Position numbers and translations under genes: made by a program. From the NCBI RefSeq assembly GCF_008868125.1, contig NZ_WAAQ01000001.1, positions 1,798,001 through 1,862,000 of the forward strand: 64,000 nucleotides of DNA. The letters run 5' to 3'. Positions 48,835 to 52,430 of the stretch are shown here, piece after piece. The first letter of the stretch is position 1. Every line of letters begins with the position of its first letter. This DNA comes from Microbacterium maritypicum. Its GTDB lineage: Bacteria > Actinomycetota > Actinomycetes > Actinomycetales > Microbacteriaceae. Under the pieces are notes generated by a model. It saw only the letters and a list, made by a program, of their open reading frames with translations, was not told the origin of the DNA and made no database searches.

Positions 48835-49875
48835 TCAGTCGGCGACGACTCTGCGCACGCGCGGCGTGAGCCGGGTGAGGATCTCTTCTCCCACGGTGTC
48901 GATGCGCTCGGCGAGAGTCGTCGCCGACGTCTCTCCGCGCTCGCCAGCGCCGAACACGACGACCTCGTCACCGACCCGCGCTCCCGGCCACCCCTCGACG
49001 ACCGATGAGGTGTGTCCCACCGACACGAGCGTCCGTGCTCCGCCGGAGGTTCCGACGCGGCTTCCGGAGAGTGTGGAGGGGAGGCCGTCGAAGCTGCCGA
49101 TCCCGATCGATACCCGATCCCCGTGGAGGTCGACGACCGTCGCGACGAGGCTCGCGGCCGGGCGGATGCCGTCGAGTTCCGGTCCCTCCGCTGATCGGAT
49201 GCCGTAGCAGAACGCTCCGATGCGTGAGACCGTTCCCCGCAGCTCGGGACGCCACCACGAAGCCGCCGAGGCGGTCAGGTGAAGCGCCGCGGGGCTCGCG
49301 CCCGACTCCCGGACGACGCGGACCGCGTCGAGGAACGCCTCGTGGGCGATGTCGTCGTCGGCGTCACTCGCCTCCGCGATATGGCTCCACACGCCAGCGA
49401 ACTCCAGGAGCCCCGCCTGCTCGGCTCCGCGCGCTTCCGCCACAGCCACCGCCCAGTCCTCCGGGAGGATGCCGTTGCGGTGCAGACCCGTGTCGATCTT
49501 GAGGTGCACGCGTGCAGATCGTCCGAGCGCCTCAGCGCGCGCGATGATCCGCCGCAGATAGTCGATCGTGCCGACGCCGAGATCGATCCTCTGCATCAGC
49601 GCATGGTCGATCTCTTCATCCGTCGATGTGACCCAGGCGAAGATCCTGGCGTCGCCGCCGGCGATCCTGCGTACGGAGAGACCGGTGCGGATGTCGTAGC
49701 TTCCGAACCACTCGATTCCCGCGTGCACCGCGGCATCCACCGCCCAGGAGAGACCGTGACCGTACGCATCGTCCTTGAGCACGAGCATCAACGTCGACGG
49801 GTCGACACGGGCGCGCACCGCATCGATGTTCGCTCGGAAGACGCTGCTGCTCAGACGCAGTTCGGGGCGGCTCAT
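48835..49875 (-). CDS. Alanine racemase-like protein keeping the PLP lysine
   Basis: This 346-residue PLP protein has the alanine-racemase barrel. Lys34, the PLP anchor, is in LVLKDDAYGHG, with KIDTGLHRNGI, GVWSHIAEASD and GAFCYGIRSAEG further on. The C-terminal domain is recognisable but degenerate: where the catalytic Tyr belongs (VSYG) it reads VSIGIG, and the Met-Asp motif (VGRVxMD) is replaced by VSVGHTSSV. A classical homodimer needs that Tyr from the partner subunit, so this protein alone should be impaired. Its ATG overlaps the stop of the upstream short racemase gene by 4 bp, giving equal, coupled synthesis. Substrate could be Ala or another amino acid. Confidence 0.85.
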   Translation of the reverse strand: MSRPELRLSSSVFRANIDAVRARVDPSTLMLVLKDDAYGHGLSWAVDAAVHAGIEWFGSYDIRTGLSVRRIAGGDARIFAWVTSTDEEIDHALMQRIDLGVGTIDYLRRIIARAEALGRSARVHLKIDTGLHRNGILPEDWAVAVAEARGAEQAGLLEFAGVWSHIAEASDADDDIAHEAFLDAVRVVRESGASPAALHLTASAASWWRPELRGTVSRIGAFCYGIRSAEGPELDGIRPAASLVATVVDLHGDRVSIGIGSFDGLPSTLSGSRVGTSGGARTLVSVGHTSSVVEGWPGARVGDEVVVFGAGERGETSATTLAERIDTVGEEILTRLTPRVRRVVAD

Positions 49876-50576
49876 GCCTCCCACCCCCGCACGGCATGAG
49901 CGCCGGCGACGGTGATGAGCTCGGCCGCACTCATCCGGGTGACGGCGGCCCACCGCGAGATCCCTGACGACGCCGGTCCCTCGCCGCCGAAGTAGGTGAC
50001 TTCCGTGCCTGCCGCGACGTCGGCGCCCTGGAGGTCGACGACGCAGACGTCCATGGCGACGCGCCCGACGATGGGCCTGCTCACACCATCGATCTCCACC
50101 TCGGCGTGATTGCCGAGCGCGCGCACGATGCCCTGTGCGTAGCCGCCGGTCACGAGCGCCACCACGGTGTCCCGGGACGCACGGTAGGTGTAGCCGTAGG
50201 AGACGGCGTCTCCCGGCCGAAGGCGCTTGGTCGACAGGACTCGGCCGGTCAACCGCATGACCGGTCGTGTCGCGAGCTCTCGGTCCGAATCGGGGATGCC
50301 GTAGAGGAGAGACGCGTCGATATCGGGCTCTCCGGTCGTGACACCGTGGATTCCCTCGAGCTGCAGCGCCTCGACCTCGCCCTGGGCATCGACGAGCACA
50401 TGTTCGGCACCGGCCGCGGTCACGACCTGGGCGACGGCGAGGACGCCGTGACCCCACGCGTCGCGGCGCAGATCGGCCACGCGACCACCGGCTGCCACCG
50501 CCGCCGACGCTCCTGCCGCCAAGGCGGAGCGGGAGATCATCGCACGCGGCAGGGAGCTGGAAGTCGTGTCACACAC
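49872..50576 (-). CDS. Short alanine racemase-like protein keeping the catalytic Tyr
   Basis: This 234-residue protein has a remnant of the racemase N-terminus, ADLRRDAWGHG at 34-44, in which Arg37 stands where the PLP lysine should be and Trp41 replaces Tyr. Most of the barrel is missing (about 45-95 only). A complete racemase C-terminal domain follows: PVMRLTGRVLSTKRL, then DAVSYGYTYRA with Tyr127 at the catalytic position, and IVGRVAMDVCVVDL with Met175-Asp176. It cannot bind PLP in the usual way, but it retains what the next gene product has lost. The GTG start is leaderless (TAGGCT 7 nt upstream). No frameshift is evident; the gene is intact. Confidence 0.85.
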   Translation of the reverse strand: MCDTTSSSLPRAMISRSALAAGASAAVAAGGRVADLRRDAWGHGVLAVAQVVTAAGAEHVLVDAQGEVEALQLEGIHGVTTGEPDIDASLLYGIPDSDRELATRPVMRLTGRVLSTKRLRPGDAVSYGYTYRASRDTVVALVTGGYAQGIVRALGNHAEVEIDGVSRPIVGRVAMDVCVVDLQGADVAAGTEVTYFGGEGPASSGISRWAAVTRMSAAELITVAGAHAVRGWEA

Positions 50577-50656: not shown

Positions 50657-51673
50657 ATGTCTCGTCTTTCCCTCACGCCCCGCATCCGCTATCTGATGGG
50701 ACGTGCCCGCCGCATCGACGTCGGATCGGTGGTGGAACGCGCCAAAGAGGCCTCCGAGCAGCACCACAAGGCGGTCCCCGCGATCGTCGTCGACATGCTC
50801 TGGTCGGCCGCGCGCCACAACGTCGGGTTCCAGGACTACATCGACTACGACTTCGCGATGCTGACGAAGGCCGAGCGCGCGACGTACATGACGCATCCGG
50901 TCTCGAACCAGCTCTCCCAGCGGTACGACCACCCGGACTATCGCTGGATCTTCCAGGACAAGGTCGAGTTCGACAAGCAGTTCTCCGACCATCTGCACCG
51001 CGAGTGGATGGTCGTCGAGGAGGGCAACGCCGACGCTGTTCGCGAGCTCACCCAGCGCCTCGGAACGATCGTCACGAAGGAGCCGGTGGGCCAGGCGGGC
51101 ACCGGAGTGCACCGCTATCACGCCGCCGACATCGACGACTGGGACGAGTTCCACCGTGGGCTGCTGGCCCGCGGCGAACTCCTGATCGAGGAAGTCATCC
51201 GTCAGCACGACGCCCTCGCAGCCGTGTGCCCCGGCACGGTGAACACCACCCGGATCACGGCGTTCTTCGACGGCGAGAAGGCCCATATCCTCGCGATGGC
51301 CCAGAAGTTCGGGCGTGGTGCCGTGAGCGACCAGATGACGTTCGGCGGCTTCTACACGATGCTCGATGAGAACGGTCATGCCGTCGGCGCAGGGTACGAC
51401 TCGCACGGCCACGTGCACGAGACGCATCCGGACTCAGGCTTCCGCATCGCCGACTTCCAGCTTCCCTACATGGACGAGGTACGCGCGTTCATCGACGAGG
51501 TCGCCCGCGTCGTGCCGCAGGTGCAGTACGTCGGCTGGGACATCGTGGTCTCCCCGGACGGGCCCGTGCTCGTCGAGGGCAACTGGGGTGCCGGCGTGTA
51601 CGAGAACAAGCCCAGCGTCACCGGCATCCGCACGGGCCACAAGCCTCGCTACCGCGAGGTCATCGGCTTCTGA
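50657..51673 (+). CDS. ATP-grasp ligase, sugar-transfer-associated type
   Basis: This 338-residue protein resembles the ATPgrasp_ST family: VVDMLWSAARHNVGFQDYIDYDF, then FQDKVEFDKQFSDHLHREWM, TKEPVGQAGTGVHRYH (phosphate loop), LLIEEVIRQHDAL, and the metal-binding WDIVVSPDGPVLVEGNWGAG. Members join a carboxylate to an amine or hydroxyl using ATP, often within capsule or cell-wall loci; no member has a firmly assigned reaction known to me. It is divergent from two alanine-racemase-like genes and convergent with a CofE-like ligase, which suggests work on a cell-envelope peptide. That is inference. Confidence 0.8.
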   Translation: MSRLSLTPRIRYLMGRARRIDVGSVVERAKEASEQHHKAVPAIVVDMLWSAARHNVGFQDYIDYDFAMLTKAERATYMTHPVSNQLSQRYDHPDYRWIFQDKVEFDKQFSDHLHREWMVVEEGNADAVRELTQRLGTIVTKEPVGQAGTGVHRYHAADIDDWDEFHRGLLARGELLIEEVIRQHDALAAVCPGTVNTTRITAFFDGEKAHILAMAQKFGRGAVSDQMTFGGFYTMLDENGHAVGAGYDSHGHVHETHPDSGFRIADFQLPYMDEVRAFIDEVARVVPQVQYVGWDIVVSPDGPVLVEGNWGAGVYENKPSVTGIRTGHKPRYREVIGF

Positions 51674-51726
51674 GATCCACGAAGAAGGCCCCGGATGCTG
51701 AGCATCCGGGGCCTTCTTCGTGGATC
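51674..51726. terminator. Very long perfect hairpin, bidirectional terminator
   Basis: 25-bp exact arms (51674-51698 and 51702-51726) with a 3-nt loop between the convergent ATP-grasp and CofE-like genes; AAGAAGGCC/GGCCTTCTT gives a partial T-rich end in both directions. Confidence 0.85.
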
Positions 51727-51734
51727 TGAGCGGA

Positions 51735-52430
51735 TCAGACCGCGCGGACGATACCGAGCGGCGTCGACTCCAGGCCCTGTCCGAGCGGGTTGTCGCCGAG
51801 GATCTTGACGAGGCGACGCTCTGCGTCCTTGTCGAGCGTCGAACCGAGGATGTTGCCGCCGAGATCGTTGATGTCGACCACCGCCACCTCCGCCTGACCG
51901 CCGATCAGCGCCTTCACGCGTGCGGCCACGCCGTCGGGATCCTTGGGTCCGAGCACGACGGCCTCGTTGTAGGGAGGGATGGTGTGCTTGGTCGGACCGT
52001 CGATCGCGCGTGCCTTGTCTCCGGCGATGCGGTAGAAGTCACCACGACGGCCGAAAGCCTTGGTCACCGCCGCCACGGCGGACGCGAACAGGATACGCGG
52101 GGTGCCGCACTCCCGCAGCGCCATCTCCATCGTCTCGGGCATGCCGAGTCCGATGCCGTACGGCGTGCGGGTGACGTACTTAGAGAGGAAGAGCGCGAGC
52201 TTGCGCGGCTTGATCTCATCGAGACGGTATGACCGCCCCTGGGTGATCGCCACGATCTTCTCGGTCACGAACAGCAGGTCGCCCGGCTGCACGGCGTCCT
52301 TGGCGTACTCCGTGATGATCGCATCGAGGTCGTCCTCGGGCATGACCACGCGGGTGCGCAGCGGGATGCGTGCGTAGCTCTTGCCGTCGACGCTGGTCTC
52401 GAGCGCCTTGCCGTCGTTCGCCTGACTCAT
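51735..52430 (-). CDS. CofE-like gamma-glutamyl ligase-type protein
   Basis: This 231-residue protein resembles coenzyme F420-0:gamma-glutamyl ligase: [20 protein letters not shown], then [40 protein letters not shown] and [15 protein letters not shown]. CofE adds glutamate to F420-0 with GTP. No cofC, cofD or fbiC gene is here, so it may be a relative with another substrate. The ATG overlaps the sigA stop by 4 bp, so it is co-transcribed with the principal sigma factor. This linkage to sigA seems to be a Microbacteriaceae feature. Confidence 0.78.

Follow-up and report, generated by a model that had tools for sequence, protein, structure and literature searches.

Complementary halves of an alanine-racemase site in two overlapping genes of Microbacteriaceae: a likely one-site heterodimer

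Introduction

Textbooks describe alanine racemase, a drug target, as a homodimer. The Alr and DadX enzymes belong to PLP fold-type III, with a barrel (PF01168) and a C-terminal domain (PF00842), and each homodimer carries two sites. Catalysis uses two bases placed across the dimer interface, the PLP lysine on one side and a tyrosine and a Met-Asp motif on the other. In the known structures, as given in excerpts of PMC3146814 and PMC3485190, Lys39, Tyr354 and a middle-layer Asp come from one subunit, while Tyr265', Tyr284', Arg290' and Arg309' come from the other. According to the excerpted text of PMC3485190, Tyr354 and Tyr265' form a narrow gap that limits the site to alanine; Lyr has Thr and Bar has Ala at the Tyr354 position, which gives bulkier, basic side chains more space.

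Lyr, Bar and BsrV have the Alr-like fold and are complete homodimers, and the serine racemase VanT has an Alr-like domain in which Tyr354 is likewise altered. Pairing of unequal paralogues is known from other enzymes: the trypanosome AdoMetDC prozyme and the antizyme inhibitor of ornithine decarboxylase are dead paralogues that pair with an active one, activating or sequestering it.

The gene pair described here shares the Alr/DadX fold in both of its proteins and would follow the same cross-interface logic. It differs in being encoded by two genes, in having one of its sites predicted dead, and in carrying Glu or Asp at the Tyr354 position. The last feature recalls Lyr, Bar and VanT in that the tyrosine is replaced, although by neither Thr nor Ala, and Lyr, Bar and BsrV are not split into two subunits as this pair is. 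It resembles the prozyme and antizyme inhibitor in the pairing of defective paralogues, but here each subunit would supply half of one site. The pair is thus a new variation on a known fold and mechanism. Among the open-licence PMC papers listed, judged by titles and the starts of abstracts, none described a heteromeric alanine racemase or an enzyme making the D-diamino acid of B2-type peptidoglycan in these bacteria, and none of the matches listed linked alanine racemase and Microbacterium.

Results

Layout and domains of the gene pair

The pair lies in a stretch of 64,000 nucleotides from Microbacterium maritypicum (NZ_WAAQ01000001.1, positions 1,798,001 to 1,862,000), which we call the window. 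Positions such as Lys39 and Tyr354 follow the numbering of the Geobacillus enzyme, transferred through an alignment to the genome's own Alr. Row counts below refer to a genus set (81 rows) and a second set of 68 pairs. The features, in window coordinates, are:

48835..49875, minus strand: long subunit, 346 aa; alanine-racemase barrel with the PLP lysine, and a C-terminal domain without the Tyr loop and Met-Asp
49872..50576, minus strand: short subunit (the partner), 234 aa; barrel remnant without the Lys, then a full alanine-racemase C-terminal domain
49872..49875, minus strand: ATGA overlap of the partner stop and the long start
49774..49776, minus strand: Lys34 codon of the long protein, the PLP lysine (Geobacillus Lys39); Lys in 81/81 and 68/68
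48883..48885, minus strand: Glu331 codon of the long protein (Tyr354 substrate-specificity position); Glu in 81/81 of the genus set, Glu 48 and Asp 20 in the other set
49123..49128, minus strand: Leu250/His251 of the long protein, where the Tyr265 loop was deleted
50466..50468, minus strand: Arg37 codon of the partner (PLP lysine position)
50196..50198, minus strand: Tyr127 codon of the partner (catalytic Tyr265); Tyr in 81/81 and 68/68
50049..50054, minus strand: Met175-Asp176 codons of the partner (Met312-Asp313); Met in 81/81 and 68/68, Asp in 81/81 and 54/68 (Asn in 14)
50657..51673, plus strand: ATP-grasp ligase (PF14397), 338 aa, divergent neighbour; also seen close to the pair in further genomes, at differing positions

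A first-pass annotation made from the DNA letters and their open reading frames had described two genes, for proteins of 346 and 234 aa, with a 4-bp overlap. Its coordinates are right: both genes are on the minus strand and have the ATGA in common, and a spacing of -4 was seen in most of 80 Microbacterium loci. Its placement of Lys34, Arg37, Tyr127 and Met175-Asp176 also stands, as does its statement that the partner lacks most of the barrel, PF00842 (104.4 bits) being the partner's sole Pfam domain above cut-off and PF01168 going unmatched. It erred in reading the VSIGIG of the long protein as an Ile in place of the catalytic Tyr. That motif aligns with LVPLGYADG, in the Tyr284 region, which rules out a Tyr-to-Ile substitution; instead the Tyr265 loop, some 19 residues between Leu250 and His251, is deleted.

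The long protein matched PF01168 at 138.8 bits and, weakly, PF00842 at 36 bits from profile position 37, both above cut-off. Neither protein reached the 168-bit cut-off of the NCBIfam equivalog TIGR00492 (long 112.2, short 106.7 bits). By PDB bit scores the long protein is nearer to Streptomyces alanine racemases, its best matches (141 and 121 bits), than to lysine racemase (51.5) or Bar (47.2). AlphaFold models of both proteins have the Alr fold; ordinary alanine racemases made up the alignments that guided them.

Complementary catalytic residues

Conservation was scored in two sets of pairs. The genus set of 81 rows counts the window's pair twice and so holds 80 distinct long proteins; it retains one row with the partner in two frames (L113) and one cut by a contig end (L118). 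The second set comprises 62 pairs from family loci (without loci L185, L192 and L196) and six from named genomes; 60 are from other genera and 8 from the window's genus, and no long protein is common to both sets.

In the genus set, Lys39, Tyr43, Arg136, His166 and Arg219 are present in all 81 long proteins and Tyr265 is absent from all; every partner has Tyr265, Met312 and Asp313, and at the Lys39 position carries Arg (77 rows), Glu (2), Ala or Pro. The 68 further pairs repeat the pattern, with Lys, Arg136, His166 and Arg219 in 68/68 long proteins and Tyr265 in 0/68; among the partners, Tyr265 and Met312 are in 68/68, Asp313 in 54/68 (Asn in the other 14), and Lys in 0/68, with one gap. Overall the split is without exception: long proteins have the Lys in 149/149 rows and the Tyr in 0/149, partners the Tyr in 149/149 and the Lys in 0/149, so that in no row does either protein hold the PLP lysine and the catalytic tyrosine in one chain. 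The joint conservation of K34 and Y127, which the first-pass annotation had proposed checking by aligning the pair across Microbacteriaceae, is therefore complete in these 149 rows. Partners further keep Arg290 (149/149) and Arg309 (147/149). The Tyr354 position is acidic in every long row, as Glu or Asp (149/149), and is Ala or another residue in partners. An acidic residue three positions after His166 marks 148/148 distinct long rows, versus 0/20 ordinary Alrs.

Such a split pattern is far from chance, and the conserved residues of the long protein and its partner are, as aligned, the two halves of the alanine-racemase site. A one-site heterodimer of the two is the likely arrangement. By analogy with the known homodimers, the barrel of the long protein would face the C-terminal domain of the partner, and PLP on Lys34 of the long protein and Tyr127 of the partner would be the acid-bases of the sole site. 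The opposite site would be dead, the partner's Arg37 facing a Tyr-less domain, with neither Lys nor Tyr.

The PLP-binding barrel of the long protein is complete, and one could imagine it acting alone, either as a homodimer that uses a different proton donor or as some other PLP enzyme, with the partner a regulator or stabiliser. We consider this decidedly unlikely: the partner retains exactly Tyr265, Arg290, Arg309 and Met312, residues for which a stabiliser alone would have no use, and both genes have been lost jointly in 64 genomes of the genus.

Co-occurrence, fusions and distribution

Among 366 genus genomes, with presence limits of E ≤ 1e-22 for the partner and E ≤ 1e-42 for the long protein and the lists scored by eye, 297 had both, 64 neither, 3 the long protein only and 2 the partner only. 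Presence was concordant in 361 (Fisher p 4e-65, uncorrected for kinship). Two of the long-only genomes (G274 and G275) encode partner and long protein in a single ORF, of 550 and 541 aa, and the third (G325) has a pair with a divergent partner. As for the partner-only genomes, one (G070, 68% complete) has the long protein in pieces, and in the other (G284, 72% complete, about 230 contigs) only an ordinary alr was otherwise found. Separate occurrence of the genes in relatives, which the first-pass annotation had named as evidence against its proposal, thus comes down to this last, incomplete assembly, with a partner and no long protein.

A scan of the family matched the long protein (E ≤ 1e-40) in 159 of 398 genomes and 44 of 85 genera. 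The 64 family loci inspected were the best-scoring rows, biased to strong matches, and covered 24 genera by handle, the window's included. At 61 of them a separate partner lay just upstream (one locus having two pairs), two were fusions and one (L196) had two complete genes. The fusions, of 729 aa (L185) and 766 aa (L192), are both from genus g85, bringing the short-long fusions to four in two genera. Partners that are adjacent, co-occur and are sometimes fused in relatives are what a two-gene enzyme would leave.

Outside the family the pair was not seen at E ≤ 1e-42, a cut-off that may miss divergent pairs there: all 12 matches among 297 genomes of the order fell within the window's family, and the one match outside it among 376 genomes of the phylum (L375) is an ordinary Alr with the Tyr. 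Plasmids gave 25 matching records, all below 60% identity; among the 15 listed, 13 were annotated alr or vanT and 2 were unannotated. Two observations on individual genomes were made along the way. M. sufflavum (G760) has a second, divergent pair elsewhere in its genome (L338), with an ATP-grasp gene in the same direction, and at L113 (genome G181) the partner gene seems split over two frames, by frameshift or assembly error.

Other racemases of the genome

A search for a third, complete alr was among the checks suggested by the first-pass annotation, and its result is positive. Domain scans of the window's genome turned up a housekeeping alr that is complete and, as read from the ORFs, placed between glmS and tsaE; its counterpart in M. 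sufflavum is 91% identical. A VanT-like racemase gene is present too, with Lys and Tyr in one chain, unlike the pair, and His at the Tyr354 position. Two more PF01168 matches in the genome lack a match to the C-terminal domain. The VanT-like gene sits in a van-type cluster (L111, G000:C2:62000-73000), presumably made up, by our naming from the ORFs, of a response regulator, a sensor kinase, a carboxypeptidase-like gene, the VanT-like racemase, a D-Ala-D-X ligase-like gene and an acyltransferase.

The separate complete alr rules out that the pair is the genome's only one, and the pair is therefore not the housekeeping enzyme. Because the genome has both this alr and the VanT-like racemase, the pair is probably not the source of D-alanine. 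Likewise, an ordinary alr was matched in 62 of the 64 genus genomes with neither gene (60 over most of its length, 2 partially), or 59 of 60 good assemblies; the two misses are an assembly of 640 contigs (G208) and one 59% complete (G201). These counts, together with the Glu or Asp that replaces Tyr354 in 149/149 long rows, make it unlikely that the same heterodimer is a second alanine racemase making D-alanine, even though its fold and catalytic set match that enzyme.

With a complete alr in the same genome, the partner or the long protein might also enter mixed dimers with the housekeeping racemase and tune it. This appears very improbable, given that the halves co-occur with each other and are fused together in four genomes, and that ordinary alr is present where both halves are missing.

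Origin and selection

Trees were built from 83 pairs (the 68 plus a random draw of 15 from the genus set) together with 75 ordinary Alrs. In the C-domain tree the partners form one clade (0.996) and the long proteins another (1.0); in the barrel tree the long proteins form one at 0.992. The same clades were recovered with added rows (0.922 and 0.998 in the C-domain tree, 0.99 in the barrel tree). In Herbiconiux daphne and genome G739 a complete gene is followed in tandem by a second complete one, which has all catalytic residues and Asp or Glu at the Tyr354 position. In the C-domain tree these complete second copies are sister to the long proteins (0.908) and the first copy of G739 is sister to the partners (0.935), while the Herbiconiux first copy clusters with ordinary Alr. 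The barrel tree disagrees on the order of losses: there the complete second copies nest among the long proteins instead of being sister to them. By their residues and tree positions, the complete tandem pairs of these two relatives resemble a pre-split ancestor. Partners at the family loci are truncated in 50 cases (<270 aa) and full-length in 12, the full-length ones lacking Lys39 and His166.

The pair may accordingly have arisen from a complete alr duplicated in tandem, whose downstream copy would have changed Tyr354 to Glu or Asp before complementary losses in the two copies. Two other complete genes were noted: Arthrobacter sp. ISL-95 (L323), outside the family, has a second Alr with Asp at the Tyr354 position, and H. 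daphne (L376) a third Alr-like gene with His there, as in the VanT-like gene of the window's genome; this third match is a single gene, not a pair.

Partner and long-protein distances correlate (Mantel r 0.73, with 0 of 2000 permutations as high). Median dN/dS was 0.14 and 0.16 for the two genes (40 of 58 candidate comparisons), the partner ranging up to 0.39, and purifying selection acts on both. Loss of catalytic residues from each gene, and the G181 partner read in two frames, might suggest two decaying pseudogenes from a tandem duplicate. With dN/dS near 0.15 for both genes and the remaining half-sites invariant in the rows examined, we give that reading next to no credence and reject it on dN/dS.

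The proposal of an obligate heteromeric racemase, made in the first-pass annotation, thus draws support from residue complementarity, joint presence and absence, four fusions, matched divergence and purifying selection, all read from sequence. We put a probability of roughly 0.82 on the overlapping genes encoding complementary half-sites of an obligate heterodimer with one working site, taken with a putative tandem-duplication origin and a putative role with a basic substrate.

Substrate and gene neighbours

Replacement of the alanine-restricting Tyr354 by Glu or Asp suggests a substrate other than alanine. Gene neighbours bear on what it may be. The short flanks of the 64 family loci held GatD/MurT at 37, ATP-grasp PF14397 at 21, both at 0 and neither at 6; 18 wider Microbacterium loci had ATP-grasp at 10, MurT and GatD at 7 and neither at 1. 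MurT and GatD form a lipid II amidation operon and work on the D-Glu carboxyl used by B-type cross-bridges; to our knowledge the racemase pair is no part of the described MurT/GatD complex. A MurT_C search gave no match in the window's genome, and its control matched in 2 of 14 genomes. At L121 and like relatives, MurT and GatD instead lie between sigA and the pair.

The ATP-grasp gene is codirectional with the pair at L126, L129, L133 and L338; in the first three, whose flanks are wide, it was found without the parE and sigA that accompany it at the window's locus. As a specific partner of the pair the ATP-grasp gene was dropped, being at least as common where the pair is absent (37/40 tested genomes without the pair versus 29/40 with it). 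Within 50657-52430 of the window it lies beside a gene resembling F420-0:gamma-glutamyl ligase (PF01996), and some pairless Microbacterium genomes (G010, G033, G056, G079, G113, G114, G115 and others) have two PF14397-like ATP-grasp genes side by side.

Because Glu or Asp stands in for Tyr354 and MurT/GatD or ATP-grasp genes are frequent neighbours, a basic, ornithine-like substrate and a cell-wall role, providing a D-amino acid for B-type peptidoglycan, are plausible, with one contrary species. Less certainly than the heterodimer, the enzyme would racemise an ornithine-like basic amino acid for the cross-bridge on D-Glu.

Microbacterium species contain D-ornithine, L-lysine or diaminobutyrate, according to excerpts of PMC10757982. 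M. sufflavum (D-Orn) carries two pairs. Microbacterium sp. Yaish 1 has no pair; its Alr and that of the L-Lys species M. arborescens share 98% identity. Against the substrate assignment, the single genomes surveyed from three diaminobutyrate-type genera, Rathayibacter, Cryobacterium and Herbiconiux, showed no split pair. A strict D-ornithine rule was dropped, contradicted by the intact pair of M. gubbeenense, which the excerpted part of PMC10757982 gives as L-lysine type.

Discussion

Taken to its fullest extent, our interpretation is of an obligately heterodimeric, single-site racemase that arose within Microbacteriaceae by duplication and complementary loss and makes the D-ornithine-type amino acid of B-type cross-bridges, with intermediates still extant. 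In this extended form it is tentative, a possibility we would rate somewhat short of even odds. The surviving stages would run from a complete tandem pair through a full-length dead-barrel partner and a truncated partner to a re-fused single chain.

The pair is widespread in one bacterial family, being present in many Microbacteriaceae. If true, this interpretation would make it a clear natural example of complementary loss turning a homomeric enzyme into an obligately heteromeric one, with the intermediates still alive. If the substrate assignment also holds, the pair would become a candidate source of the D-diamino acid in B2-type peptidoglycan.
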